A stretch of DNA of 64,000 nt from Halothiobacillus diazotrophicus (GTDB lineage: Bacteria > Pseudomonadota > Gammaproteobacteria > Halothiobacillales > Halothiobacillaceae): assembly GCF_001663815.1 (NCBI RefSeq), contig NZ_CP016027.1:434001-498000 (forward strand), given 5' to 3'. Made by a program: the position numbers and the translations under genes. Shown piece after piece: positions 22,298-64,000 of the stretch (positions are counted from its first letter, which is position 1; every line of letters starts with the position of its first letter). The notes under the pieces are model-generated. The model had not been told where the DNA came from. It searched no databases and saw only the letters and a program-made list of their open reading frames with translations.

Positions 22298-23539
22298 ATG
22301 ACAAAAGAAAGTAATTCCCCGACTAATCGTAAGCCATTGGCGATACCTCGGCGAACCGATATTCTCCTGCGCGCTACTATTATTATTCCTATTGTTTTGG
22401 GTGCTATGGGCATCGTTCTGGTCGGTAATGCCTCAGCCTTTTCACTGTCTGTCGCGGGGGTTGTTTCTTTAGTGGCGGGTGGTTTCGGTTATTTCTCCTA
22501 TCGTCGGATCTTGGGCGACGGGTCTCGGGAGAGCGCCAAAGGGGCTGCTGCGGATGCAGACACGCTGCCGATGCCGTCGGCGGTGCCCCGAACGGATAAC
22601 CTGAGTACGTTTTGTGTGGCGGTTCTCCCTGTTTGGTCCAGCCAGATCCTGATGGCGCGCGATCACACCGAGCACGCTATTACCGCTTTGACCAACCGTT
22701 TCTCGGATCTCTCCCGACGTATTGCCAACGCGACTTCCGATGATGCGTCCGGTGGGAAGAGCGACATGGTCTCCCTGCTCGTCAACAGCGAGGAGGAACT
22801 CAGCAGCACGATTGCTTCCATGCGTTCCGCGCTCAGTGAAAAGGCGCGCTTGCTCGATGAGATGAGTGCGCTGTCGAACGTCACCGAAGAGCTCAAGACC
22901 ATGGCCGAAAACGTCGGAGGAATAGCCCGTCAGACCAACTTGCTGGCGTTGAACGCCGCAATTGAAGCCGCACGCGCCGGCGAACACGGTCGCGGTTTCG
23001 CCGTTGTGGCTATGGAGGTTCGAAAACTGTCCAGTCTCTCCGGTGAGACGGGGGAGCAGATCGCCGAGACGATTTCCTCGGTCAATGCCGCGATCGCCAC
23101 CACGCTGGATGTTTCGAGCAAGCTCGCCGATCGGGATGCCCAGATGCTGCAGGAATTCGAGCAGCTGATTGGCAGCATCATGACGCGCTTGCACACGGCC
23201 TCCGAGGAGGTTTCGGCGTCCGCCGAAGCGATGCGTCACGAAAGCCAGATCGTCGGTGCCGAGATCGGTGATGTGTTGGTGGCGCTCCAGTTCCAGGACC
23301 GGGTAAGCCAGGTGATGAATCACGTCTGCAACGACATGAGTCGCCTGGTAGCGCGCCTGGAGGAGCGGATCGACATCATGAAAAGTGCTAACCAACGGCT
23401 CGAGCCGATCGATGTTTCCGTCTGGCTCGAGGAATTGGCTCAGACCTACACCATGCCCGAACAACATGCGATTCATGGCGATACGGATCCGAAGAAAACA
23501 TCCGGAACCCCGTCCGGATCGGAAATCACCTTTTTCTAG
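22298..23539 (+). CDS. methyl-accepting chemotaxis protein without periplasmic sensor
   Basis: A 413-residue chemoreceptor. Two adjacent hydrophobic helices (about 25-45 and 48-68) with almost no loop anchor it, so there is no periplasmic ligand domain and no obvious HAMP. The cytoplasmic coiled coil has the conserved tip [20 protein letters not shown] (around residue 210) and [22 protein letters not shown], the site that contacts CheA and CheW. The C-terminal part contains [14 protein letters not shown], common in short receptors of this type. The C-terminus SEITFF does not fit the CheR-tether pentapeptide consensus. It is the first gene of the chemotaxis operon. Confidence 0.9.
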
Positions 23540-23562: not shown

Positions 23563-23931
23563 ATGGCAAAGACGATTTTGATTGTTGATGACTCAACTTC
23601 ACTGCGCCAGGTGGTCAGCATCGCCCTCAAGGGGGCGGGATACGACACCATTGAAGCGTGTGACGGCAAGGACGCACTCGGCAAGCTCGATGGCCGGAAA
23701 ATCCATCTCGTCATCAGCGATGTGAACATGCCCAACATGGATGGGATCACTTTCGTGAAGGAGATGAAGAATATCCCCAGTTACAAGTTTACTCCCGTGA
23801 TCATGCTGACCACGGAAGCAGGGGCTGACAAGAAGGCTGAGGGACAGGCCGCCGGCGCCAAGGCTTGGGTTGTGAAGCCATTCCAGCCGGAACAGATGAT
23901 CGCGGCGGTCTCCAAGCTCGTCCTGCCTTGA
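23563..23931 (+). CDS. cheY: chemotaxis response regulator CheY
   Basis: A 122-residue single receiver domain. Acidic residues are present in ILIVDDSTSLRQVV, the phospho-acceptor Asp in HLVISDVNMPNMDGI, the conserved Thr in VIMLTTEAG and the Lys in AWVVKPFQPEQM. No output domain is attached, so it fits a CheY that carries the signal from CheA to the motor or acts as a phosphate sink. The gene lies 23 bases after the receptor gene and 16 before the STAS gene. Confidence 0.93.
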   Translation: MAKTILIVDDSTSLRQVVSIALKGAGYDTIEACDGKDALGKLDGRKIHLVISDVNMPNMDGITFVKEMKNIPSYKFTPVIMLTTEAGADKKAEGQAAGAKAWVVKPFQPEQMIAAVSKLVLP

Positions 23932-23947: not shown

Positions 23948-24262
23948 ATGAACATCCGGCATGACCAGCATGAGGACCTCGGCAATGTCTGGCTGGAGGG
24001 CGAGTTGACCATTTATCACGTCGACGTGGTCAAACAGTCCCTGCTTGATTTTCTCGATTCGAGCTCGACGTTGAACGTGTATTTGGATCAGGTCTCGGAA
24101 ATCGATACGGCAGGCATGCAGGTGCTGATCGCGGTGAAACAGGAGGCGGCGCGGCTCGACAAGCGGTTGATTCTCATGGAACACAGTGCTTGCGTGCTTG
24201 AGATGATCGAATTATTTGGCCTGACAGGCTTTTTTGGCGATCCGGTTCTGCTTAAGTCGTAA
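23948..24262 (+). CDS. STAS-domain protein of the chemotaxis operon
   Basis: A 104-residue single STAS domain. The strand-helix core reads NVWLEGELTIYHVDVVKQSLLDFL, then LDQVSEIDTAGMQVLIAVKQEA, in which Thr replaces the Ser that anti-anti-sigma proteins use as phosphorylation site (Thr can serve too). The C-terminus VLEMIELFGLTGFF is typical. Stand-alone STAS proteins next to cheA and cheY occur in several gammaproteobacterial chemotaxis operons; their role is not firmly known. It ends 22 bases before cheA. Confidence 0.85.
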   Translation: MNIRHDQHEDLGNVWLEGELTIYHVDVVKQSLLDFLDSSSTLNVYLDQVSEIDTAGMQVLIAVKQEAARLDKRLILMEHSACVLEMIELFGLTGFFGDPVLLKS

Positions 24263-24284: not shown

Positions 24285-26471
24285 ATGAATCTGGATGACG
24301 CACTGAAGACCTTCATCATCGAGAGCTACGAACTACTCGACCAGATGGAAGAAACCTTGCTCGACATGGAGCAAAGCGGGGCCGACGTTGAATCGATCCA
24401 TGCACTTTTTCGCGCGGCGCATACGATCAAGGGTTCTGCGGGACTATTCGGGCTGAATGACATCGTTCAATTCACTCATGTGGCGGAAAGCGTCCTTGAT
24501 CGGGTGAGAAATGCCGAAATACCGCTGACCCCCGAGCTGGCGGCGCTCCTGCTTGAAGCAGGGGATCATATTCGTGCGATGGTGGACTTCACTGCCGAGG
24601 GTGAGGCTATTCCGGCGGCAACACTGAGCACCGGCCAAGCGATCGTCGTTCGGCTTAACGGTTACCTTCAGGCGCAAAGCAAGGATTTGTCCGTGTCCGA
24701 GCCACCGGTGCAGAAATCCGGCCATACGCTTCACAAGCTGAATGATGGGCCCAGACTGGACACGGAACACTGGCATATCTCGTTACGGTTCGGACCCGAT
24801 GTCTATCGCAACGGCTTGGATCCCGCGGCATTCATCCGCTACCTCGGCACCCTGGGTACGGTGCAGGGTATTTTTCCCATTCTGGACAAGATTCCCGAGG
24901 CGTCGACAATGGACCCGGAGACCTGTTACCTCGGGTTTGAAATCGCTTATCGGAGCGAAGCCGACAAGGAAGCCATCGAGGGGGTTTTCGAGTTCGTTCG
25001 TGAAGACTGCGCGCTGCGCATCCTGCCGCCGCATAGCAAGATCGCCGAGTATCTGGCTCTGATCCATGATCTGCCGGAAGAAGATATGCGCTTGGGTGAA
25101 ATCCTCATCGAATGCGGCACCCTGACGGCGAATGAGCTCGAACAGGTATTGACCCGTCAGGGTGAGATTGAAGCCGTTCCCAAAAAGCCGATTGGCGAGG
25201 TACTTGTCGAAGAGCAGATCGTACAGCCGGCCGTCGTTGATGCCGCCTTGGAAAAACAGCGACAGGTCAAGGACAGCAAGTCCGGCGATACCGGCATGGT
25301 TCGTGTGGATGCCGGCAAGCTCGATCAGCTGATCAATCTTGTCGGAGAACTGATCATTGCAGGGGCGGGGGCCAATCTCATTGCTCAGCGATCCGGCGTC
25401 GACACCCTGTACGAAGCAACCACCACCATGTCCCGACTGGTCGAGGAAATTCGCAATTCCGCACTGAATCTGCGCATGGTCCAGATCGGGGCGACATTCA
25501 GCCGTTTTCAGCGCGTTGTCCGCGACGTGTCGCACGAGCTGGGCAAGGACATCCGGCTCGATATCACCGGCGGTGAGACCGAACTGGACAAGACGGTGGT
25601 GGAGAAAATCGGTGATCCTCTGACCCATCTGGTCCGAAACTCGATGGATCACGGCATCGAGCCTGCCGAAATCCGCGTTGCGCGCGGTAAACCGGCCCAC
25701 GGCACCTTGCGACTGAACGCCCATCATGACTCAGGGGGCATTGTCATCGAGGTTTCCGATGATGGCGGTGGCCTCAATCGCGACAAGATTCTGGCCAAGG
25801 CGATTGACCGGGGGCTCGTCAAGCCGGATAACAACCTGACCGACAAGGAAATATTCAACCTCATTTTCGAGCCTGGATTCTCGACGGCAGACAAGGTCAA
25901 CAATCTTTCCGGTCGCGGGGTCGGCATGGACGTGGTACGGAAGAATATTACGGCTTTAAGAGGCACCATCGAGCTCGACAGTTCGCCCGGGCAGGGAATG
26001 ATTGTCAGTATCCGATTACCGCTGACGCTCGCCATCATCGATGGGTTTTTGATCGAGGTCGGTGAATATTCCTACGTCATTCCCCTGGAGATGGTCGTCG
26101 AGTGCGTGGAATTGTCGGAGCGCGATCGAATGGCGCTTGACGAGCGTAGCTACCTCAATCTACGGGGTGAGGTATTGCCCCTCATCAACCTGCGCGAACA
26201 TTTCTCGGTCCGGCATGCGATCAGTCGGCGTTCCAACATCGTGGTCGTGCAGCATGCGGACCATAAGGCCGGCTTGGTCGTGGACGCTTTGCTTGGCGAG
26301 TTCCAGACGGTCATCAAGCCGCTTGGCAAGATATTCAGCGGTTTCAGAGGCGTGAGTGGTTCGACGATCCTGGGATCGGGCGAAGTGGCGCTGATACTCG
26401 ACGTGGCTGAGCTGATCCAGCGAGAAATCGGTAAGGAGCAGCGACGTCGATTGACGAGCGAAGTGCAGTGA
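24285..26471 (+). CDS. cheA: chemotaxis histidine kinase CheA
   Basis: A 728-residue CheA, the kinase phosphorylating CheY and CheB. Domains: P1/HPt about 1-110 with phospho-His46 (AAHTIKGSAGLF); a P2-like region about 160-250 (HWHISLRFGPDVYRNG, LGTVQGIFPILDKIP); an unusual tandem segment 269-325; P3 dimerisation about 338-400 (VDAGKLDQLINLVGEL); P4 kinase about 405-580 with LVRNSMDHGIE, SDDGGGLN, FEPGFSTA and GRGVGMDVV; P5/CheW-like about 583-715 (VIPLEMVVECVEL, GLVVDALLGEFQTVIKPL). ATG 24285 was chosen because the longer frame begins inside the STAS gene. All catalytic motifs look intact. Confidence 0.96.
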   Translation: MNLDDALKTFIIESYELLDQMEETLLDMEQSGADVESIHALFRAAHTIKGSAGLFGLNDIVQFTHVAESVLDRVRNAEIPLTPELAALLLEAGDHIRAMVDFTAEGEAIPAATLSTGQAIVVRLNGYLQAQSKDLSVSEPPVQKSGHTLHKLNDGPRLDTEHWHISLRFGPDVYRNGLDPAAFIRYLGTLGTVQGIFPILDKIPEASTMDPETCYLGFEIAYRSEADKEAIEGVFEFVREDCALRILPPHSKIAEYLALIHDLPEEDMRLGEILIECGTLTANELEQVLTRQGEIEAVPKKPIGEVLVEEQIVQPAVVDAALEKQRQVKDSKSGDTGMVRVDAGKLDQLINLVGELIIAGAGANLIAQRSGVDTLYEATTTMSRLVEEIRNSALNLRMVQIGATFSRFQRVVRDVSHELGKDIRLDITGGETELDKTVVEKIGDPLTHLVRNSMDHGIEPAEIRVARGKPAHGTLRLNAHHDSGGIVIEVSDDGGGLNRDKILAKAIDRGLVKPDNNLTDKEIFNLIFEPGFSTADKVNNLSGRGVGMDVVRKNITALRGTIELDSSPGQGMIVSIRLPLTLAIIDGFLIEVGEYSYVIPLEMVVECVELSERDRMALDERSYLNLRGEVLPLINLREHFSVRHAISRRSNIVVVQHADHKAGLVVDALLGEFQTVIKPLGKIFSGFRGVSGSTILGSGEVALILDVAELIQREIGKEQRRRLTSEVQ
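25089..25259 (+). other. MshEN-like tandem segment inside CheA
   Basis: Residues 269-292 of CheA begin RLGEILIECGTL and end in Leu-x-x-Gln. They match every conserved position of the 24-residue MshEN motif (RLGxxLVxxGxI, then spaced Leu, Leu and final Gln) that binds c-di-GMP in MshE-type ATPases. Residues 302-325 (PIGEVLVEEQIV ... ALEKQ) are a second, degenerate copy lacking Arg and the second Gly. The linker is 9 residues; the canonical one is shorter. Binding is inferred from the motif only. Confidence 0.6.
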
Positions 26472-26576: not shown

Positions 26577-28226
26577 ATGTTTAAGCATATGAAAATAGGC
26601 GTTCGCCTGGGACTGGGGTTTAGTCTGATGGTCATTTTGCTGCTGGCGATGATCGGTATCGGTCTCAACGGTATGAATACCGTCAAGCAGAATCAGGACG
26701 AAATCGTCAATGTGAACGATGCAAAACTGGTTGAGGCGGAGAAAATGACAGCCTCCGTACGCACCATTGCGACGGCGGTTCGCAATATCGTTCTGTTGAC
26801 CAATCCGGCTGAGATGCAGGATGAGGTGCGGCGTATTCAGACCCAGCGTGCAGCGTACGATGAGGCGCTGGCCAAACTGACGGAAATGACCACGTCACAT
26901 GCCGGCAAGGAGCGTCTGTCGAAGATCGTCGAGTACCGCGCGGCCACCACGCCGTGGGTCGACAAGGTGATCCAGTTCGGCTTGGTGAACAATATCGCCG
27001 ATGCGACCAAAACCTTGATGGAGCAGGTGCGACCGGCACAGACCAAATGGTTGAACGCCCTGCATGAAACCATCGAAGAACAACAGCGACTCAATGATGC
27101 CGCGGTGGTCGCCTCGACGCATTCCTACGATCGCGCCCGTCTTCTGATGCTGATCGTGGGGGGGCTTGCCCTGCTGGTGGCATTCATCGTGGCGTTCTGG
27201 ATTACGCTGAGCATCACCCGGCCGCTCCATGTTGCGGTTTCCGTTGCTAACGCCTTGGCCGAGGGCGATCTGACTGGACGGATCGACGTCGTGACGCATG
27301 ACGAAACGGGTGCCTTGCTTCAGTCCATGCAAAACATGGTCGAGAAACTCTCCCGGATCATCAGCGAGGTACGTGGGGGCGCCAATGCCTTGTCTTCTGC
27401 CGCGGAGGAAGTGAGTGCCACGGCGCAGAGTCTTTCCCAGGCATCCAGCGAGCAGGCGGCTTCGGTTGAGCAAACCAGTGCCTCCATGGAGCAGATGTCC
27501 GCCAGTATCGACCAGAACACCGAGAATGCTCGGGTTACCGAGGGCATCGCTGCCAAGGCGGCCAGCGATGCCGTCGATGGTGGCAAGGCGGTTGGTGATA
27601 CGGTGTCTGCCATGAAGACCATCGCCGAAAAGATCGGCATCATCGACGACATCGCTTATCAGACGAACATGCTCGCGCTGAACGCGGCGATCGAGGCGGC
27701 CCGTGCCGGCGAGCATGGCAAGGGATTCGCCGTGGTTGCAGCGGAAGTGCGCAAGTTGGCGGAACGCAGTCAGGTGGCTGCACAGGAGATCGGCGAGGTG
27801 GCCAAGGGCAGCGTCAGCGTGGCCGAACGGGCGGGGCGTCTGCTGGATGAAATGGTGCCGAACATCAACAAGACTTCCGATCTGGTTCAGGAAATCGCGG
27901 CGGCATCAGCCGAGCAGTCCAGTGCTGCAGGTCAGGTCAATACGGCCATGATCCAACTCAGCCAGACGACGCAGCAGAATGCGAGTGCCTCAGAGGAACT
28001 TGCCGCAACGGCTGAGGAGATGAGCGGTCAGGCGGAACAGTTGCAATCATTGGTTGCCTTTTTCTCCGTGAACGAAGCAGGTGGCTCCCCGCGTGCCAAG
28101 CCCGCCGCCTCGTCCGTCAGCAAGACGAAGCGAGAAACGCCGACAACTCAGTCGGGGGGCGGCGGCAGTCGGGCGCCACGTTCACAGGATTCTTCGGTCT
28201 CTAGAGAAGATTTCGTGAGTTTTTAG
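26577..28226 (+). CDS. methyl-accepting chemotaxis protein, four-helix-bundle sensor
   Basis: A 549-residue transmembrane chemoreceptor. TM1 is about residues 12-33 ([17 protein letters not shown]), followed by a periplasmic 4HB_MCP-type helical sensor (about 34-188) and TM2 ([22 protein letters not shown]). A HAMP domain follows ([24 protein letters not shown]). The signalling hairpin has [20 protein letters not shown] at its tip. The last residues, DFVSF, fit the x-[HFYW]-x-x-[HFYW] pentapeptide that tethers CheR or CheB/CheD after a flexible Ser/Thr-rich linker. ATG 26577 follows AAGGAG by six bases, which rules out the longer frame. The ligand cannot be predicted. Confidence 0.93.
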
Positions 28227-28237
28227 GGAGGCATGTC

Positions 28238-28777
28238 ATGGGGGCGTTGACTACAACCGGCGCGGCATCGGCTAAGACGCTTGTCGTTTCCACGGGGGAC
28301 AGGCCAGAAACCCAGCAGTACCTGACCTTCATGCTCTCTGGTGAGGTGTATGCCATAGGCATTCTGGCCGTGCGGGAAATCATCGAGTTCGGACAGTTGA
28401 CCGAAGTGCCCAACATGCCGGACTTCATCCGGGGGGTAATCAACCTCCGGGGTGCCGTGGTACCCGTGGTCGACCTTTCCGTTCGTTTCGGCAAGGGGGA
28501 AACGGCCGTTTCCCGACGTACCTGCATCGTGATCAACGAGATCGAGAATGACGGTGAGACACAGACCATCGGCGTGATGGTCGATGCCGTCAATGAGGTG
28601 CTGGAAATTCCTGCCAGCGAGATCGAAATGCCGCCGACATTCGGTGCGAAGATTCGCTCTGATTTCATCGAGGGCATGGGGAAGGTCGAAGGCAAGTTCG
28701 TCATTCTACTGAATGTGGACCGGGTACTCTCCGTTGATGAAATGAGCGAACTCGTGGCGGCCAGGTCCCAACGATGA
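28238..28777 (+). CDS. cheW: chemotaxis coupling protein CheW
   Basis: A 179-residue CheW that links receptors to CheA. After a polar 25-residue extension, the core shows QYLTFMLSGEVYAIGILAVREIIEFGQLTEVPNMPDFIRG, INLRGAVVPVVDLSVRFG, and GVMVDAVNEVLEIPASEIEMPP. Receptor-contact residues around NLRG are conserved. It begins 11 bases after the receptor gene with a GGGAGG ribosome site, and its stop overlaps a small downstream ORF as ATGA. Confidence 0.95.
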   Translation: MGALTTTGAASAKTLVVSTGDRPETQQYLTFMLSGEVYAIGILAVREIIEFGQLTEVPNMPDFIRGVINLRGAVVPVVDLSVRFGKGETAVSRRTCIVINEIENDGETQTIGVMVDAVNEVLEIPASEIEMPPTFGAKIRSDFIEGMGKVEGKFVILLNVDRVLSVDEMSELVAARSQR

Positions 28778-28934: not shown

Positions 28935-29747
28935 ATGGACGGCAGAACGCCGGTGCTCTCGGACAAGGAGTTCCATCAGTTTCAGGCGCTGATTTACAGG
29001 ATTGCCGGAATCACCCTGTCGGACGCGAAGAAGTCCCTGGTGAGCGGTCGGTTGATGAAACATGTGGTACATCGGGAGCTGGACAGCTTTGGCGCCTATT
29101 TTCAGCTGCTGATGCAGGACAAATCGGAATTGCAGGTTGCCGTCGACGCGCTGACCACCAATGAAACCTTCTTTTTCCGCGAACCGAAGCATCTGGAGTT
29201 TTTACGGGATAGCATTTTGCCCAATGTGGTCAGCACGCGACCCTTTCGGGTCTGGAGTGCTGCGAGCTCCTCGGGGGAGGAGGCCTTTTCGATCGCCATG
29301 ATCCTTGCTGATGGTCTGGGCGATCGTCCCTGGGAGGTCATGGGTTCGGACATCAGTCAACGCATGCTGGAGAAGGCGCGTCAGGGGCATTATTCCTTTG
29401 AGCGGGTGGAGGGGATTCCAAAGACCTACCTGAAACGCTTCTGCCTGAAGGGTGTCCGGTCACAGGAGGGTACGTTCATGATGGGCGATACCTTGCGCTC
29501 ACGTGTCAGCTTTCGATACATCAATCTGAAGGATACCTTGCCGCAAATTGGCATCTTCGACGTGATTTTCATTCGGAATGTCATGATCTATTTTGATCTT
29601 GAGGTCAAGAAGGCGGTCCTTCAGCGCCTGTTGCCGTTGCTCCGCCCCGGTGGCTATCTGTTTGTCAGTCATTCCGAAAGCCTGACCGGTTTTCATGGCC
29701 CGCTGAAAGCGGTTCGTCCTTCAATATACCGTTTACCCGATGACTGA
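28935..29747 (+). CDS. cheR: chemotaxis methyltransferase CheR
   Basis: A 270-residue CheR that methylates receptor glutamates with S-adenosylmethionine. The N-terminal helical domain (FHQFQALIYRIAGITLSDAKKSLVSGRL) is followed by the catalytic domain: TTNETFFFREPKHLEFL, the SAM-binding VWSAASSSGEEAFSIAMIL, the Asp in VMGSDISQRMLEKA, and FDVIFIRNVMIYFD. The end GGYLFVSHSESLTG is typical. It overlaps cheD by eight bases. No TPR extension is present. Confidence 0.96.
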   Translation: MDGRTPVLSDKEFHQFQALIYRIAGITLSDAKKSLVSGRLMKHVVHRELDSFGAYFQLLMQDKSELQVAVDALTTNETFFFREPKHLEFLRDSILPNVVSTRPFRVWSAASSSGEEAFSIAMILADGLGDRPWEVMGSDISQRMLEKARQGHYSFERVEGIPKTYLKRFCLKGVRSQEGTFMMGDTLRSRVSFRYINLKDTLPQIGIFDVIFIRNVMIYFDLEVKKAVLQRLLPLLRPGGYLFVSHSESLTGFHGPLKAVRPSIYRLPDD

Positions 29748-30231
29748 TTCACACGAGTACCTGGAGGTGTTTCTGAAGCCGGGCGACGTGTATTTCGCCA
29801 CCCGCAAGACCCGGATCCGCACGGTTCTGGGTTCTTGCGTCTCCCTGACCGTCTGGCATCCCCTGCTGAAGATGGGCGGGATGTGCCACTTCATGCTTCC
29901 GGAGCGGATTCATGAAGAAACGTCGCCGCAGGCCGATGGTCGCTATGCAGGGGAGGCCATGGCGCTGTTGCTTGCGGACATGCGGCAACTCAAGCGAGAT
30001 CCCGGAGAATTTCAGGTACGCTTGTTCGGTGGTGCCAATATGTTTCCGGCAATTTATTATGAGACGGAATTCGACACCATCGGTGCCCGAAACGTCCGTG
30101 CTGGACGCCTTTTGATCGCACAATACGGTATGAGCGCGGTTTCGGAAGACGTCGCGGGTACGGCGTATCGACATCTGGTGTTCGATGTGTGGAGTGGGGA
30201 GGTCTTGCTGTGTGCCAAGCCTCAAAAATGA
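29740..30231 (+). CDS. cheD: chemoreceptor glutamine deamidase CheD
   Basis: A 163-residue CheD, which deamidates receptor glutamines and can interact with CheC where present. Catalytic residues are visible: Cys in TVLGSCVSLTVW and His in GGMCHFMLPER. RLFGGANMFP is also a family signature. It starts inside the end of cheR, indicating translational coupling. Confidence 0.95.
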   Translation: MTDSHEYLEVFLKPGDVYFATRKTRIRTVLGSCVSLTVWHPLLKMGGMCHFMLPERIHEETSPQADGRYAGEAMALLLADMRQLKRDPGEFQVRLFGGANMFPAIYYETEFDTIGARNVRAGRLLIAQYGMSAVSEDVAGTAYRHLVFDVWSGEVLLCAKPQK

Positions 30232-30375
30232 CGCCGGGCAATGCCTGCCTGTTCGTGCCGCGCAGTGCGATATCACGGCGTGCGTCCGACGGCCGAGCGG
30301 GTTGCGCCCACCGCCGGCATGTCTATCTCGACCATGGCCAGTGGTTCGTCGGCAGTAATCGTCAAGGAGTGTGTC

Positions 30376-31437
30376 TTGACCCGAATTAAGGTGTTGATCG
30401 TGGATGATTCCGCGGTTGTCCGGCAGGTGCTTTCGACGACCTTGGCGCAGGATGCGGCCATCGAGGTCATCGATGTTGCGGCCGATCCGCTCTTCGCCAT
30501 GCAGAAGATGGCGAAGCAATGGCCCGATGTCATCGTGCTGGATATCGAGATGCCCCGTATGGACGGCATCACTTTCCTCAGAAAAATCATGACGGAAAGA
30601 CCGACACCCGTCGTGATTTGCTCCACCTTGACGGAAAAGGGTGCCGAAACCACGATGCAGGCACTGTCCGCGGGCGCGGTCGGTATCGTCGCCAAACCCA
30701 AGGTCGGTCTTAAGCAATACCTTCAGGATGCTTCCGACGATCTTGCCAGTGCGGTGAAGGCGGCGGCGCGCGCCAATCCGAAACGATTGAAACCGGTGCA
30801 TTCGCCCATCGTGTCGGCGCCAAAGCTCACGGCCGACGCTGTGTTGGCACCGGGACCGGCCATGATGCAAACCACCGATTTTGTGGTGGCGATCGGCACC
30901 TCGACAGGGGGAACTCAGGCATTGGAAGTTGTTCTGACGGCGTTGCCGCGCACCTGTCCCGGCATCGTCGTCGTTCAGCATATGCCCGAGAAATTCACCG
31001 AAGCGTTCGCAAAGCGACTGAATGGCTTGTGCCAAATGGACGTCGCCGAGGCGCGCCACGGCGATCGGGTTTTGCCGGGCCGCGTCCTGATCGCGCCGGG
31101 AGGGCGCCACATGCTGCTCAAGCGCAGTGGTGCGCAATATCATGTCGAAATCGTCGATGGTCCGCCGGTCAGTCGGCATCGACCCTCCGTGGATGTCCTC
31201 TTCCGTTCCGTCGCAAAATTCGCGGGCAAGAATGCGCTGGGTATCATCATGACGGGCATGGGCGATGACGGTGCGCGCGGTCTCAAGGAGATGCACGACG
31301 CCCAAGCGCGGACACTGGCGCAGGACGAAGACAGCTGCGTGGTTTATGGCATGCCCAAGGAGGCTGTGAAGCTGGGCGCTGTGGATCGGGTTCTTCCGTT
31401 GAACGACATTCCGGGGGCGATCATGACCAGTCGCTGA
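30376..31437 (+). CDS. cheB: chemotaxis methylesterase CheB
   Basis: A 353-residue receptor methylesterase/deamidase controlled by phosphorylation. The receiver domain has [16 protein letters not shown], phospho-Asp in [14 protein letters not shown] and Lys in GIVAKPK. After a linker, the esterase domain shows the catalytic Ser in [11 protein letters not shown], His in [15 protein letters not shown] and Asp in [13 protein letters not shown]. The start is taken as TTG 30376, six bases after a perfect AAGGAG; the longer frame to 30241 has no such site and its extra residues look unlike CheB. It is the last chemotaxis gene. Confidence 0.93.
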
Positions 31438-60033: not shown

Positions 60034-63000
60034 CTAAATGCTTTTGTCCCTGATGCGCTCGATCAGGTAGCCGGTCAGCAAGGCGCTGGTTCCTGCATCC
60101 CCGGGGTTGTCGTGGATCAGCTTGTGCCACCGGGCTACCTCGCTATCCTGCAGGTCCTGATCGATCAGGAATTGGGTGAGTGGACATTCTGCCTCATCCA
60201 CGGGATGAACGTGGTGCTCGTGGTGAATGAACCACCAGTGATAGGTCAGCGCACCCAGAAAGGTATCGATCTTCTCGGGACGGATCGGTAGCTCGAATCC
60301 GCGGTACCAGGGTTCCAGATGTTTCGCGGTCATCGGGCGGGCAAGTGCGTATCCCTGCCCCTGTTGTGCGCCGAGGATGGCGGCCATTTCGAGCATCCCT
60401 TTGTCTTCCAGTCCCTCCACGACGACCACAAAATTGAGATCGCGCCCCATCTGTACGATGGACGAGATCAGTCCGATCGTCTGGATCGGCTTGTCCCGAA
60501 CCTGAATCAGCAGCCCCTGATCGATTTTGATTGTTTCGAAGGGAATGGACGACAACCGTTGCAGACTGCTGTATCCGGAGCCGAGATCGTCGATTGCCAG
60601 CTTGACACCTAAGTTCAGCAGTCGTTCGATGACCTCGTTTCTTTGCACGATATCCATGGACTGGGTTTCCAACAGCTCGAGTGTTAGCCGTTGCGGCGCG
60701 ATTCCGTATTTTTCCAGTGCCGTTCGGACCCAGTCCGGACTCTGGTTGTCCAATAGCGCGCAGGGCGGCAGATTGATGGACACATCGACGCTCATCCCTT
60801 GCTCGTCCCAGGATACGAGATGTGCGAGTGATGCTTCCAGACCGATGCAAAATAGCCGGTTCAATTCGGCTTCGCTCAGCAATGCCAGGAAGAAACTGGG
60901 CGGTACCGTTTGCGCTTCCTTCAGATTGAGCCGGGCAAGAGCTTCGACCTTGATCATCTGGCCGGTCCGAAGATCCACGATCGGTTGAACCAACATTTGC
61001 AGGCCGTTGTTGAAGAGGCGTTGACGTATTTTTTTTGCTTCCGCCTCCGGCACGATGGGGGGCCTGGTGCCAGAGCGCGCCCAAATCTGCTCCCATCGCT
61101 GCTTCATCCCGAAGGCGAATTGCTGCATCACCTGCGATTCGAACTGACTGGGGTAGGCACCCATCATCACGATCACCGCTTCGCATTGTCCCTGTTCGTT
61201 GATGATGGGCACGCTGAGGGCTGAGCGTGCGCGCTCGATGAGCGGTGATTCCCGCCACACCTGATAATGCGGATCCTGCGACAGCGAGGGGATCGAGTAG
61301 ATCTGTCTGCTTCGCCATGCCTGCGCGCAAATTGTCATGCCGCGTGGCGACGAGGGATCGACCACGGGCTCATGCCCCGGTCGGGCGTACAGTTCGGCAA
61401 CGGTTGATGCCAGAGGGCCTGCATGGGTCACGATGGTGAATGTGCCATCTGGTGCGAGTTGAACGAGCAAAGCGGCCTGAATGCCGGCTAGTGCCCCGAT
61501 CTGATTGATTTCCGCCGTGCTGCTTTCCTGCCACGATATCCCCTGGGGGGGCAGCGGGGCCGAGTTGAGACGAAAATAGGCGGTGAGAATCTGGTCCTCG
61601 ATGGCCAGTTCGACATGCAGATCGTCCTGGATACGGGTTTCGGCGGTGATGAGTAGCCGGTACCGCTCGCGAGCGGGTAGTAAAGCATGACTCAGGTGCT
61701 CGTTGAGTAGTCGACGGTATAGACTGATACCCTGCGTTAATAAGATTGGCCTGACCCCAACCAGGACATGGACCGTGCCGACGTGCCGCGCGTGTTCGAT
61801 GAGTCCCGCCTGGGACGTTTCGGGGTTCAGCAGGAATTGCAGATGATGGCGCTGACTCTGCATAAGTCCGGCCATTTCCTGATTGCTGAGTGTTTTGAGG
61901 ATCGCATTGGCTTGAGGATCCCGGGCAAGTTCCGAGTAGAAGGAATTGACGAATTGGCCGAGTACGCGCTCCAGATACGGTCGCGTTTTATGGAGCAGGG
62001 CAACCGCTTCCTCGCTGTAGGCGTCAAACTGTTTCTCAGATTCCGGCGGACCGGCGCGGTCGACGCCATGGCGCCACCACTGCTGCCGATCGTGTTTGTG
62101 CTCCTTGGCCTGGTACATGGCTGCATCGGCATGCCGTATCAGGCTGTCGCCATCCTTTGCATCGAAGGGAAAGAGGGCCACGCCGAGCGTCATGCCGACT
62201 TCGGCACGGGTGGTCTCGGAAAGGACGAACGGGTATTCAACGGCTTGGTGCAAGCGGTCCAGCGCCGCCTGCAACTGAGCCATGGTATTGCCCGATTCGA
62301 GGTTTTCGAGCACAACAATGAATTCGTCCCCGCCCAGCCGGACAAGGAAGTCCGTTTCGCGAATCAGGGACTGCATCCTTGCGGCCAACTGATTCAGGAG
62401 CTTGTCACCTGCCTCGTGCCCCCAGTTGTCATTGATGGGCTTGAAATCGTCGAGATCCAGCATGCCGACCGCCAGGATGGTATTTTGGCGATCGGCCCGG
62501 GCAATGGCTTTTGGTAGATATTCATCCAATGCCCGACGGTTGGGGAGGCGGGTCAGTGCGTCGTGCAAAGACTCGAAGAGAATCTGATCCTGAGCCTGCT
62601 GCTGCAGGGTGACGTCGACGATACTCCAAAGTATCCCCGGGTCTCCACTTGCCAGGGAAACCGGTGAACCCAGGATCTGCACGATGATGATGGTGCCGTC
62701 TTTCCTGCGGATATTTGCCGTTTCATGAATCCATGGCTGACCATGAAGCAAAGCTGCGTGCTGTGTCGCAAAACGTTCAAAAGCGTCATGATCGACGTGA
62801 AGCAGTGCCGTGCTTTTTCCGACGAGTTCATCGATGGGATAGCCGGTAATTTCGCTCAGTGAGGCATTAGCATCTTGAATGATCCTGTGTTCGTCGACCA
62901 GAAACAGTCCCGCGGCATTTTTTTCGAATAGCGCGCGTTGATAGTTCTGGGACTGCAGTAGCCTCCGTTCGAGTTGTCGCTCCCGGTTACGGGCGTCAAT

Positions 63001-64000
63001 CTGATCCAGACCGCGGGAAATGATGTGCGCCAATTCCCCGAGCAATTGTTGAACATCTTCGTCCCACACGTTTTCCTGTGCGTGATAGACACTGAATATC
63101 GCCCATATCTGTCCATTTCGGAAAATGGGGTGTGCCGCACAGGCGTGAAGACCGAAACGACAAGCACGTGCCTGCCAGGGTTTGGCGTAATTCGAGTCCT
63201 TGCAGGACTGGTAAAAGCGGGGTTTCTGATCGCGCCAGGCGAGTCCGACCGGATCTCCCTGCTGGTTGTGTTGCGGGTGGAGCGACACGGCGAGATCCTG
63301 GAGGTAGTCGACCGCGCCGAATGCAGCGATACATCGCAATAGTTCCCGTTTGTCCGGTGTGCCGACCCAGGCAAGTTTCAGGTGACCATATTGAATGGAA
63401 AGCCTGCATATCTCCTGGAGCAATACCCCGTCATCGTCTGTAGTGGCGATGATCTGGCTGACCTGCGCCGACATCGTGTTGAATTCGTTAAGTCGTTTGA
63501 GCCGCTGTGCGTCCCGTATGCGGTGCTGAAAAAGGACGACGATGCCTGCAGCGGCCAGGCCAAGCAGAAAAAGCGTGCCGATTTCCCAGGCCCAGCGGAG
63601 GGGCGCCTGAGCCATGTACAGCTCCATTGCTCTGTTTGCTGCCCAGTTGATTTGTATCTGTAGTGGGTAACCCGGTACATCGATCGGATCGGTCTGAACT
63701 TTTCCCGGGGTACCGTTGAACAACACGCGACCATCCTGCCACTCACCGAGGACGCTACGGTCCCGAAGGTCGATAACCGTGAATCGGAAGATCCGCGATA
63801 GTAATGGTTGTTCATCATGAAGCAGTCGATCCAGGTGATAGGGGGAACCGACAAAGAAGCGGGTCTTCCCATCCGAATCGGTCACCCTGAATCGCATGGG
63901 GAGTACATGCGCGTCCACTCTCTGGGCAAACGTGGCGCGCCCCAGTAGGAAATTCCTGTTTAGCCCGAGCGCCGTGAATTCGTCGCCGTTATTGATTGGT
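60034..64000 (-). CDS. GAF-PAS-GGDEF-globin-GAF-EAL protein, 5' end outside window
   Basis: A giant c-di-GMP protein whose frame is open to the window edge; numbering here is from GTG 63918. An extracytoplasmic region leads to one membrane helix (about 110-131), GAF (150-305), PAS (325-440), GGDEF (450-615, LGGDEF at 528-533), a sensor-globin segment (640-785), GAF (800-945) and EAL (960-1200, Glu992 in VEALARL; INLPP, IDDLGSGYSSL, IKIDQGL). The globin has GTVHVLVGV with His717 where globin-coupled sensors place the haem-binding His, suggesting oxygen or NO control. A His-rich C-terminal tail (1212-1294) follows. Internal placement of globin between GGDEF and EAL domains is notable. Confidence 0.88.
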   Translation of the reverse strand, partial: PINNGDEFTALGLNRNFLLGRATFAQRVDAHVLPMRFRVTDSDGKTRFFVGSPYHLDRLLHDEQPLLSRIFRFTVIDLRDRSVLGEWQDGRVLFNGTPGKVQTDPIDVPGYPLQIQINWAANRAMELYMAQAPLRWAWEIGTLFLLGLAAAGIVVLFQHRIRDAQRLKRLNEFNTMSAQVSQIIATTDDDGVLLQEICRLSIQYGHLKLAWVGTPDKRELLRCIAAFGAVDYLQDLAVSLHPQHNQQGDPVGLAWRDQKPRFYQSCKDSNYAKPWQARACRFGLHACAAHPIFRNGQIWAIFSVYHAQENVWDEDVQQLLGELAHIISRGLDQIDARNRERQLERRLLQSQNYQRALFEKNAAGLFLVDEHRIIQDANASLSEITGYPIDELVGKSTALLHVDHDAFERFATQHAALLHGQPWIHETANIRRKDGTIIIVQILGSPVSLASGDPGILWSIVDVTLQQQAQDQILFESLHDALTRLPNRRALDEYLPKAIARADRQNTILAVGMLDLDDFKPINDNWGHEAGDKLLNQLAARMQSLIRETDFLVRLGGDEFIVVLENLESGNTMAQLQAALDRLHQAVEYPFVLSETTRAEVGMTLGVALFPFDAKDGDSLIRHADAAMYQAKEHKHDRQQWWRHGVDRAGPPESEKQFDAYSEEAVALLHKTRPYLERVLGQFVNSFYSELARDPQANAILKTLSNQEMAGLMQSQRHHLQFLLNPETSQAGLIEHARHVGTVHVLVGVRPILLTQGISLYRRLLNEHLSHALLPARERYRLLITAETRIQDDLHVELAIEDQILTAYFRLNSAPLPPQGISWQESSTAEINQIGALAGIQAALLVQLAPDGTFTIVTHAGPLASTVAELYARPGHEPVVDPSSPRGMTICAQAWRSRQIYSIPSLSQDPHYQVWRESPLIERARSALSVPIINEQGQCEAVIVMMGAYPSQFESQVMQQFAFGMKQRWEQIWARSGTRPPIVPEAEAKKIRQRLFNNGLQMLVQPIVDLRTGQMIKVEALARLNLKEAQTVPPSFFLALLSEAELNRLFCIGLEASLAHLVSWDEQGMSVDVSINLPPCALLDNQSPDWVRTALEKYGIAPQRLTLELLETQSMDIVQRNEVIERLLNLGVKLAIDDLGSGYSSLQRLSSIPFETIKIDQGLLIQVRDKPIQTIGLISSIVQMGRDLNFVVVVEGLEDKGMLEMAAILGAQQGQGYALARPMTAKHLEPWYRGFELPIRPEKIDTFLGALTYHWWFIHHEHHVHPVDEAECPLTQFLIDQDLQDSEVARWHKLIHDNPGDAGTSALLTGYLIERIRDKSI

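Follow-up and report, generated by a model that had tools for sequence, protein, structure and literature searches.

A predicted c-di-GMP receptor domain of the MshEN_N type lies in the linker between the P2-like region and the P3 dimerization domain of the chemotaxis kinase CheA encoded in the window (i.e., the whole 64,000-nucleotide stretch of DNA analysed here). According to our best reading, this CheA is an accessory chemotaxis kinase of beta- and gammaproteobacteria. The proposal that residues ~265-336 correspond to an MshEN_N-type receptor bundle whose binding of c-di-GMP would gate kinase output is considered to have a slightly better than even chance of being correct. As to its parts, binding of c-di-GMP by this segment, predicted from sequence and modelled structure, is reasonably probable, and an effect of c-di-GMP on CheA kinase activity is possible at somewhat less than an even chance. 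The evidence presented below comprises a sequence match, a predicted fold, conservation at the positions that contact the ligand in MshE and the position of the segment in the linker, and points to a candidate c-di-GMP-binding site.

Domain organization of CheA

Pfam searches recognized Hpt (P1), P3, HATPase (P4) and CheW-like (P5) domains in this protein, encoded within a che operon, identifying it as a CheA (Table 1). The sequence of the first MshEN copy is RLGEILIECGTLTANELEQVLTRQ and that of the second is PIGEVLVEEQIVQPAVVDAALEKQ, as translated from the window. The positions corresponding to those contacting the ligand in MshE are Arg269, Leu270, Gly271, Leu285, Leu289, and Gln292 in copy 1 and Pro302 (rather than Arg), Ile303, Gly304, Val318, Leu322, and Gln325 in copy 2. 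The first-pass annotation had reported MshEN-type repeats inside CheA, and this observation was confirmed. Moreover, its coordinates proved exact, with residue 269 corresponding to base 25089 and residue 325 ending at base 25259 upon translation, and its placement of the segment between the P2-like region and P3 was found to be right on the basis of Pfam matches and an AlphaFold2 model of the full-length protein. The overall interpretation offered there, namely, that c-di-GMP could tune CheA directly, is partly supported.

Table 1. Features of the CheA-encoding region, in positions of the window and in residues of CheA.
Feature	Position	Strand	CheA residues	Basis and remarks
MCP-signalling-domain protein (short), first gene of cluster	22298..23539	+		Pfam, no other domain found
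CheY-type receiver	23563..23931	+		Pfam
STAS-domain protein	23948..24262	+		Pfam
cheA	24285..26471	+		Translation; 728 aa, ATG start at 24285
CheA P1 (Hpt)			7-94	Pfam
CheA P2-like region			~160-247	Pfam match only at E 0.1, on 200-aa piece
Helix linking P2-like region to MshEN_N bundle	25041..25070	+	253-262	AlphaFold2
CheA MshEN_N-type domain (predicted)			~265-336	
MshEN copy 1	25089..25160	+	269-292	NCBIfam NF053729, conservation; helices 270-277, 282-294 (AlphaFold2)
Spacer between MshEN copies, 9 residues	25161..25187	+		
MshEN copy 2	25188..25259	+	302-325	NF053729, conservation; helices 303-309, 315-336 (AlphaFold2)
CheA P3 dimerization domain	25296..25466	+	338-394	Pfam H-kinase_dim
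CheA P4			445-581	Pfam
CheA P5/CheW			587-713	Pfam
Membrane chemoreceptor, 4HB-HAMP-MCP signal	26577..28226	+		Pfam
CheW	28238..28777	+		Pfam
CheR	28935..29747	+		Pfam
CheD	29740..30231	+		Pfam
CheB	30241..31437	+		Pfam; start codon possibly further in

Sequence and profile comparisons

NF053729, the NCBIfam model for an MshE-related c-di-GMP motif, recognized a 113-residue CheA segment with 43.3 bits (E 2.3e-11; cut-off 38) and a 200-residue piece with 40.8 bits; the entire 728-residue protein, matched over two stretches, scored slightly below the cut-off of 38 (36.9 bits; E 2.3e-9). When the 2.9 Mb genome was searched in six frames with the same model, the two CheA copies were the top two matches (E 3.0e-4 and 4.7e-4; 45 bits together) and, with the third and last match being at E 0.6, the sole significant ones. 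NF053729 also matched each of 69 aligned CheA family segments at E ≤ 0.01. Finally, comparison of a CheA family profile with PDB sequences retrieved PilF (E 5.9e-18), PilB (3.1e-8 and 9.6e-8), and MshE (1.6e-6). By contrast, the Pfam MshEN model PF05157 gave no match to the window CheA listed at E up to 10 and, with E up to 0.01 allowed, matched none of the 69 family segments. PF05157 comprises 90 positions, as compared to the 53 residues of the two-copy unit, and this length suggests that the model may score low for a bundle lacking the C-terminal half. As such, the profile search proposed in the first-pass annotation returned significant matches to NF053729, PilF, PilB, and MshE, but not to the MshEN model of Pfam, and the complete lack of a significant match, named there as refuting, did not occur. 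The only Pfam MshEN match in the genome was to a PilB-type ATPase, the N-terminus of which is without an RLG motif. Thus, by both models, CheA contains the sole canonical-looking site in this genome.

Each CheA copy misses the published relaxed 24-residue pattern at one position, namely, Thr279 in copy 1 and Gln311 in copy 2. The earlier claim that copy 1 fits all conserved MshEN positions hence does not hold, since position 11 is Thr and is hydrophobic in the published motif. Both copies have Gly3 and Gln24. Arg, Lys, or Leu, as called for by the extended consensus at position 1, is present in copy 1 (Arg269) and not in copy 2 (Pro302). Copy 2 further retains the hydrophobic residues at positions 2, 17, and 21, and has Pro in place of Arg1 and Gln in place of the turn Gly10. 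Previously described as a degenerate repeat found nine residues further on, copy 2 indeed follows a 9-residue spacer and spans residues 302-325, yet its degeneracy at the contact positions is less marked than it seems, given that Gly3 and Gln24 are kept. In addition, copy 2 shows subthreshold resemblance to positions 39-76 of DUF4388 (PF14332; E 8.6e-5 on a 90-residue piece). At E 0.01, this model matches 14 of the 69 family segments, a hint of a possible relationship between the MshEN hairpin and a part of DUF4388.

Predicted fold of the segment

In the AlphaFold2 model of full-length CheA (mean pLDDT 88), a mixed alpha/beta P2-like region extends to residue ~247 and is followed by a helix (253-262), four helices, and P3 from residue 343. 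The 10-residue blocks covering residues 261-330 showed pLDDT values of 82-91 and the following block a value of 66. A model of the segment presented a mean pLDDT of 68, with values of 75-81 in the helices and 66 in the surroundings of the spacer. In both models, a four-helix bundle of two hairpins is predicted. Structure comparison placed c-di-GMP-bound Thermus PilF GSPII-B first (8PDK; Z 8.4, rmsd 1.4 over 57) and MshE with c-di-GMP second (5HTL; Z 8.0, rmsd 2.0 over 59), followed by PilB (Z 6.4 and 6.3), a PilF mutant (5.2), and unrelated structures (at most 4.1), with a Z of ~8 on a small helical bundle being not strong by itself. When Foldseek was used with the segment model, MshE with c-di-GMP ranked first, if weakly (E 3.0; probability 0.87), and no match was obtained at E ≤ 0.001. 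As such, the predicted fold is nearest that of MshEN_N, and the refuting outcome named in the first-pass annotation, a fold unlike MshEN, did not occur, with PilF GSPII-B and MshE on top and Foldseek being weak by itself.

Conservation among CheA relatives

When 274 genomes of the class were searched, at least 26 places in 19 genomes, besides the window's own, gave a match that begins at residues 1-6 of the query and extends across the domain; at one of these, L051, the motifs have decayed. A scan of named genomes, of which the best 80 of 588 loci were considered, covered beta- and gammaproteobacteria and unclassified relatives, with family members among these best 80 loci including Pseudomonas, Aeromonas, Shewanella, Methylobacter, Dechloromonas, Duganella, and Rubrivivax. 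The set of 104 CheAs used below combines the window CheA, 27 of a further set of 40 loci, and 76 of the 80 named loci (best 80 of 588), all of which keep both copies, and the conservation rates given are valid for domain keepers only. The segment alignment (A2) contains the window CheA and 68 of the 76 named sequences, and the full-length alignment (A3) contains the window CheA and 63 of the 80.

The 13 of 40 loci left out were L051, L058-L063, L065-L069, and L071. L051, L058, L059, and L063 apparently encode the same CheA type with the domain decayed or deleted; the other loci left out encode a CheA without the domain or a different CheA type. Among the named loci (best 80 of 588), the motifs are gone from four of the 80, i.e., L137, L139, L143, and L144. 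Since some relatives have thus lost the domain, it is not required for the kinase as such. The four named loci, from Rhodocyclaceae, Azonexus, and two Pseudomonas, encode the same CheA type and offer natural domain-loss comparisons.

Gly3 and Gln24 of both copies are all kept in 102 of the 104 CheAs. Considered individually, Gly271 and Gln325 are kept in all 104, and Leu289, Gln292, and Gly304 in 103 each. The survey of homologues suggested in the first-pass annotation accordingly found both repeats to be conserved in many CheAs. Position 1 is more variable: position 269 is Arg in 72 and Lys in 7 of the 104 sequences; at position 302, 58 sequences have Pro and 13 have Arg; and Arg, Lys, or Leu begins copy 1 in 85 and copy 2 in 27. 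The published relaxed pattern is satisfied by copy 1 in 43, by copy 2 in 22, and by both in 6 of the 104. In a non-redundant set of 95 CheAs (≤85% identity), conservation reaches 97% or more at 7 of the 48 motif positions, five of which are c-di-GMP contacts in MshE. As 12 of the 48 positions are contacts, this corresponds to a hypergeometric P of 0.007 (0.017 and 0.018 at looser cut-offs), in a test that assumes independent columns and employs sequences picked by likeness to a domain-containing query. The first-pass annotation had entertained the domain being an evolutionary relic. Because the residues at ligand-contact positions rank with the best conserved of the domain, this reading is disfavoured, and copy 2, as judged from the alignment, has the look of a half-site that is conserved rather than of a relic.

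The spacer between the copies varies from 5 to 25 residues across the 104 CheAs, with 11 being the commonest length and 5 occurring in 6 of them. The distance to P3 is far more uniform, with 22 residues separating Gln325 from position 348 in 92 of the 104.

A second CheA type, from a different part of the phylum (L066 and the L152-L171 set), presents two MshEN-like copies with almost no spacer. Twenty loci were picked among the matches listed, mostly the best, and 17 were used (L155, L160, and L164 being left out), of which 14 are of the short-spacer type, L169 and L170 are of the window's type, and L171 stands apart. When the end of copy 1 was read in those 14 (among the matches listed), it was truncated and without Gln in 9, kept Gln in 4, and presented Lys in 1, making loss of c-di-GMP binding in this second type likely on the basis of its sequences.

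Comparison with known MshEN systems and alternative explanations

In MshE, c-di-GMP is reported to be contacted through stacking by Arg1, clusters of Leu, the backbone NH of Gly3, and the side chains of Gln24; binding is abolished by mutation of Gly11 and weakened by mutation of Leu10, the isolated MshEN_N half binds with a KD of 0.35 uM, and the copies are separated by 5 residues (PMC5013675). In PilF GSPII-B, Lys and Leu replace both Arg and a KD of 6 nM is described, such that Arg1 is dispensable (PMC11731258). PilF GSPII-C, which deviates solely by a Pro opening copy 2, is described as binding about like MshE; this region contains three copies, with the binding pair unspecified in that description (PMC11731258), and is hence not a clean precedent for Pro302. 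Because GSPII-C, the main such precedent, has three copies, the confidence placed in binding and that placed in an effect on the kinase were each lowered by a small step. PilF GSPII-A, whose copy 2 begins with Ser and whose site is weakened in other respects too, is reported to show no measurable binding, and its rebuilding indicated that Gln24, Gly3, and residue 1 matter, with replacement of Leu by Ile costing ~2.4-fold (PMC12002112).

Like MshE and PilF GSPII (5HTL, 8PDK), CheA contains two 24-residue copies, each a helical hairpin, that together are predicted to form a four-helix bundle, and keeps Gly3 and Gln24 in both copies. As in GSPII-C as described, copy 2 of CheA opens with Pro, although GSPII-C has three copies and CheA two. 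Unlike MshE and PilF, CheA lacks the MshEN_C half, has Thr at position 11 of copy 1 and Gln at turn position 10 of copy 2, carries the domain in the linker of a histidine kinase rather than in an ATPase, and is passed over by PF05157; its spacer is of 9 residues (5-25 in the family), as opposed to the 5 reported for MshE. Fusion of an MshEN domain to a non-ATPase enzyme is also described for NfrB, a c-di-GMP-controlled Escherichia coli glycosyltransferase for which binding was measured and activation was deduced from mutants (PMC8669469). There, however, the domain is the C-terminal domain of a membrane glycosyltransferase. The NfrB model reaches the CheA segment across the two copies at E 3.3e-4, a score well short of the cut-off set for that model.

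The first-pass annotation had also allowed for a pure structural module, and three motif deviations in the window CheA (Pro302, Gln311, and Thr279) argue in this direction and against binding. Here, the segment would be an MshEN_N bundle descended from a c-di-GMP receptor that now serves, without binding ligand, as a rigid spacer or as a docking face for P1, P2, CheY, or a STAS protein. Consistent with this, Xanthomonas XpsE is reported to retain the fold without binding (PMC5013675), Ala321 and Lys324 are highly conserved though not contacts in MshE, and the short-spacer CheA type has lost the end of copy 1 together with its Gln in 9 of 14 cases (among the matches listed). The conserved Gly and Gln could likewise be structural residues, a point against the binding reading. 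However, Gly3 and Gln24 persist in each copy in 102 of 104 CheAs, unlike what is described for non-binding XpsE, in which Gly11, Gly40, and Gln61 are changed (PMC5013675), or for non-binding GSPII-A, in which both Gln are changed (PMC12002112). A purely structural role is thus considered the less expected outcome, with roughly a one-in-three standing.

The half-sites could instead be swapped between the protomers of the CheA dimer, with c-di-GMP tying the protomers together ahead of P3. CheA dimerizes via P3, the distance from the domain to P3 is constant in 92 of 104 CheAs, and spacers of up to 25 residues would permit such exchange; nonetheless, exchange is less likely given the MshE-like 5-residue spacers of 6 of the 104, and this arrangement is deemed improbable. 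Lastly, a chance likeness of amphipathic helices unrelated to MshEN, conceivable in that Leu- and Gln-containing short helical repeats are widespread and Pfam's MshEN gave no match, was rejected as highly improbable on the genome-wide E-values of both copies (3.0e-4 and 4.7e-4) and the profile matches to PilF, PilB, and MshE, and is further opposed by the pattern conserved in 104 CheAs.

Operon and genomic context

The operon, of GC content 0.545-0.589 (2-kb windows), encodes, in order, the MCP-like protein, CheY, the STAS protein, CheA, the receptor, CheW, CheR, CheD, and CheB. Among the named loci (best 80 of 588), a relative of the MCP-like protein is found on the same strand in 70 of 80, a CheY-type match in 72, and a STAS match in 62, with STAS directly preceding CheA in 61 of the 77 loci presenting any upstream match; CheW, CheR, CheD, and CheB occur together in 30 of the 80, where many contigs end early. 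The host genome contains two other CheA-type matches. With regard to a possible recent transfer, no match above 41% identity was obtained in nine genomes of the same genus, and a genome of the same family (G010) yielded one at 62% identity.

Enzymes of c-di-GMP metabolism are indeed encoded in the window, as was earlier claimed, including response-regulator-EAL, GAF-GGDEF-EAL, and protoglobin-GGDEF-EAL proteins and a further GGDEF at ~56890. Yet, as the host genome, rich in its c-di-GMP repertoire, contains at least 45 GGDEF matches in 2.9 Mb, the proximity of such enzymes to the che operon tells little. GGDEF matches were found in 22 of 22 genomes with such a CheA (16 to 74 each, among the matches listed), weak evidence given that the set consists of carriers of such a CheA. 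A GGDEF- or EAL-type match occurs in 10 of the 80 named loci (best 80 of 588), within at most ~6 kb per side and less on short contigs, using a response-regulator-EAL query that is also able to match plain receivers; neighbouring c-di-GMP genes were accordingly set aside as weak support for the c-di-GMP reading. Separately, positions 60037-63918 of the window (minus strand) encode a 1,294-residue GAF-PAS-GGDEF-protoglobin-EAL protein, which may act as a c-di-GMP enzyme sensing oxygen or gas.

Proposed mode of action and implications

That MshEN is associated with CheA is mentioned in a single phrase by Wang et al. 2016 (PMC5013675), which gives no sequence family, placement, conservation, or binding test for CheA. 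No functional study of an MshEN-containing CheA was found in the open-licence literature searched. As such, proteins of this kind have been known since 2016, and the conserved family, the placement of the domain, and the conservation of the half-sites appear to be undescribed in that literature. Other links between c-di-GMP and chemotaxis include MapZ, which acts on CheR1 (PMC12564702), the chemoreceptor Cbp1 (PMC6454048), CheY-like regulators tuned by c-di-GMP (PMC5677366), and the phosphodiesterase Pch, which is recruited by CheA (PMC10212136). These likewise couple the messenger to chemotaxis but, as described, none involves a receptor domain inside CheA. For context, a CheA3 of 588 residues, shorter than the 728-residue window CheA and encoded in a cluster with the gene order of P. 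aeruginosa che2, is reported not to control swimming and to affect swarming (PMC4912153).

In the favoured reading, that of a c-di-GMP-binding linker bundle, one c-di-GMP would be held by the two half-sites of the MshEN_N bundle. The first would consist of Arg269, Gly271, Leu285, Leu289, and Gln292, together with Ile303 of copy 2, and the second of Pro302, Gly304, Val318, Leu322, and Gln325, together with Leu270 of copy 1. Binding would stiffen the P2-P3 linker and so alter access of P1 and P2 to the P3-P4 core. Array output would then be set, whether upward or downward, by the cellular level of c-di-GMP in addition to the receptor signal.

Extended to the family, the conserved accessory CheA class is tentatively proposed, with rather less than even confidence, to be a c-di-GMP receptor, in which binding in the P2-P3 linker, possibly across the dimer, would gate the flow of phosphate through the whole receptor array, such that the motile-sessile switch would act directly on the kinase and not via CheR, receptors, or CheY. 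If this is true, c-di-GMP would become an input of such accessory chemosensory systems, and, at the level of the kinase, a single receptor array would couple sensing of the environment to the messenger that globally governs motile and sessile life. Given that the family is large, a binding result obtained with a fragment of ~90 residues would bear on many species.
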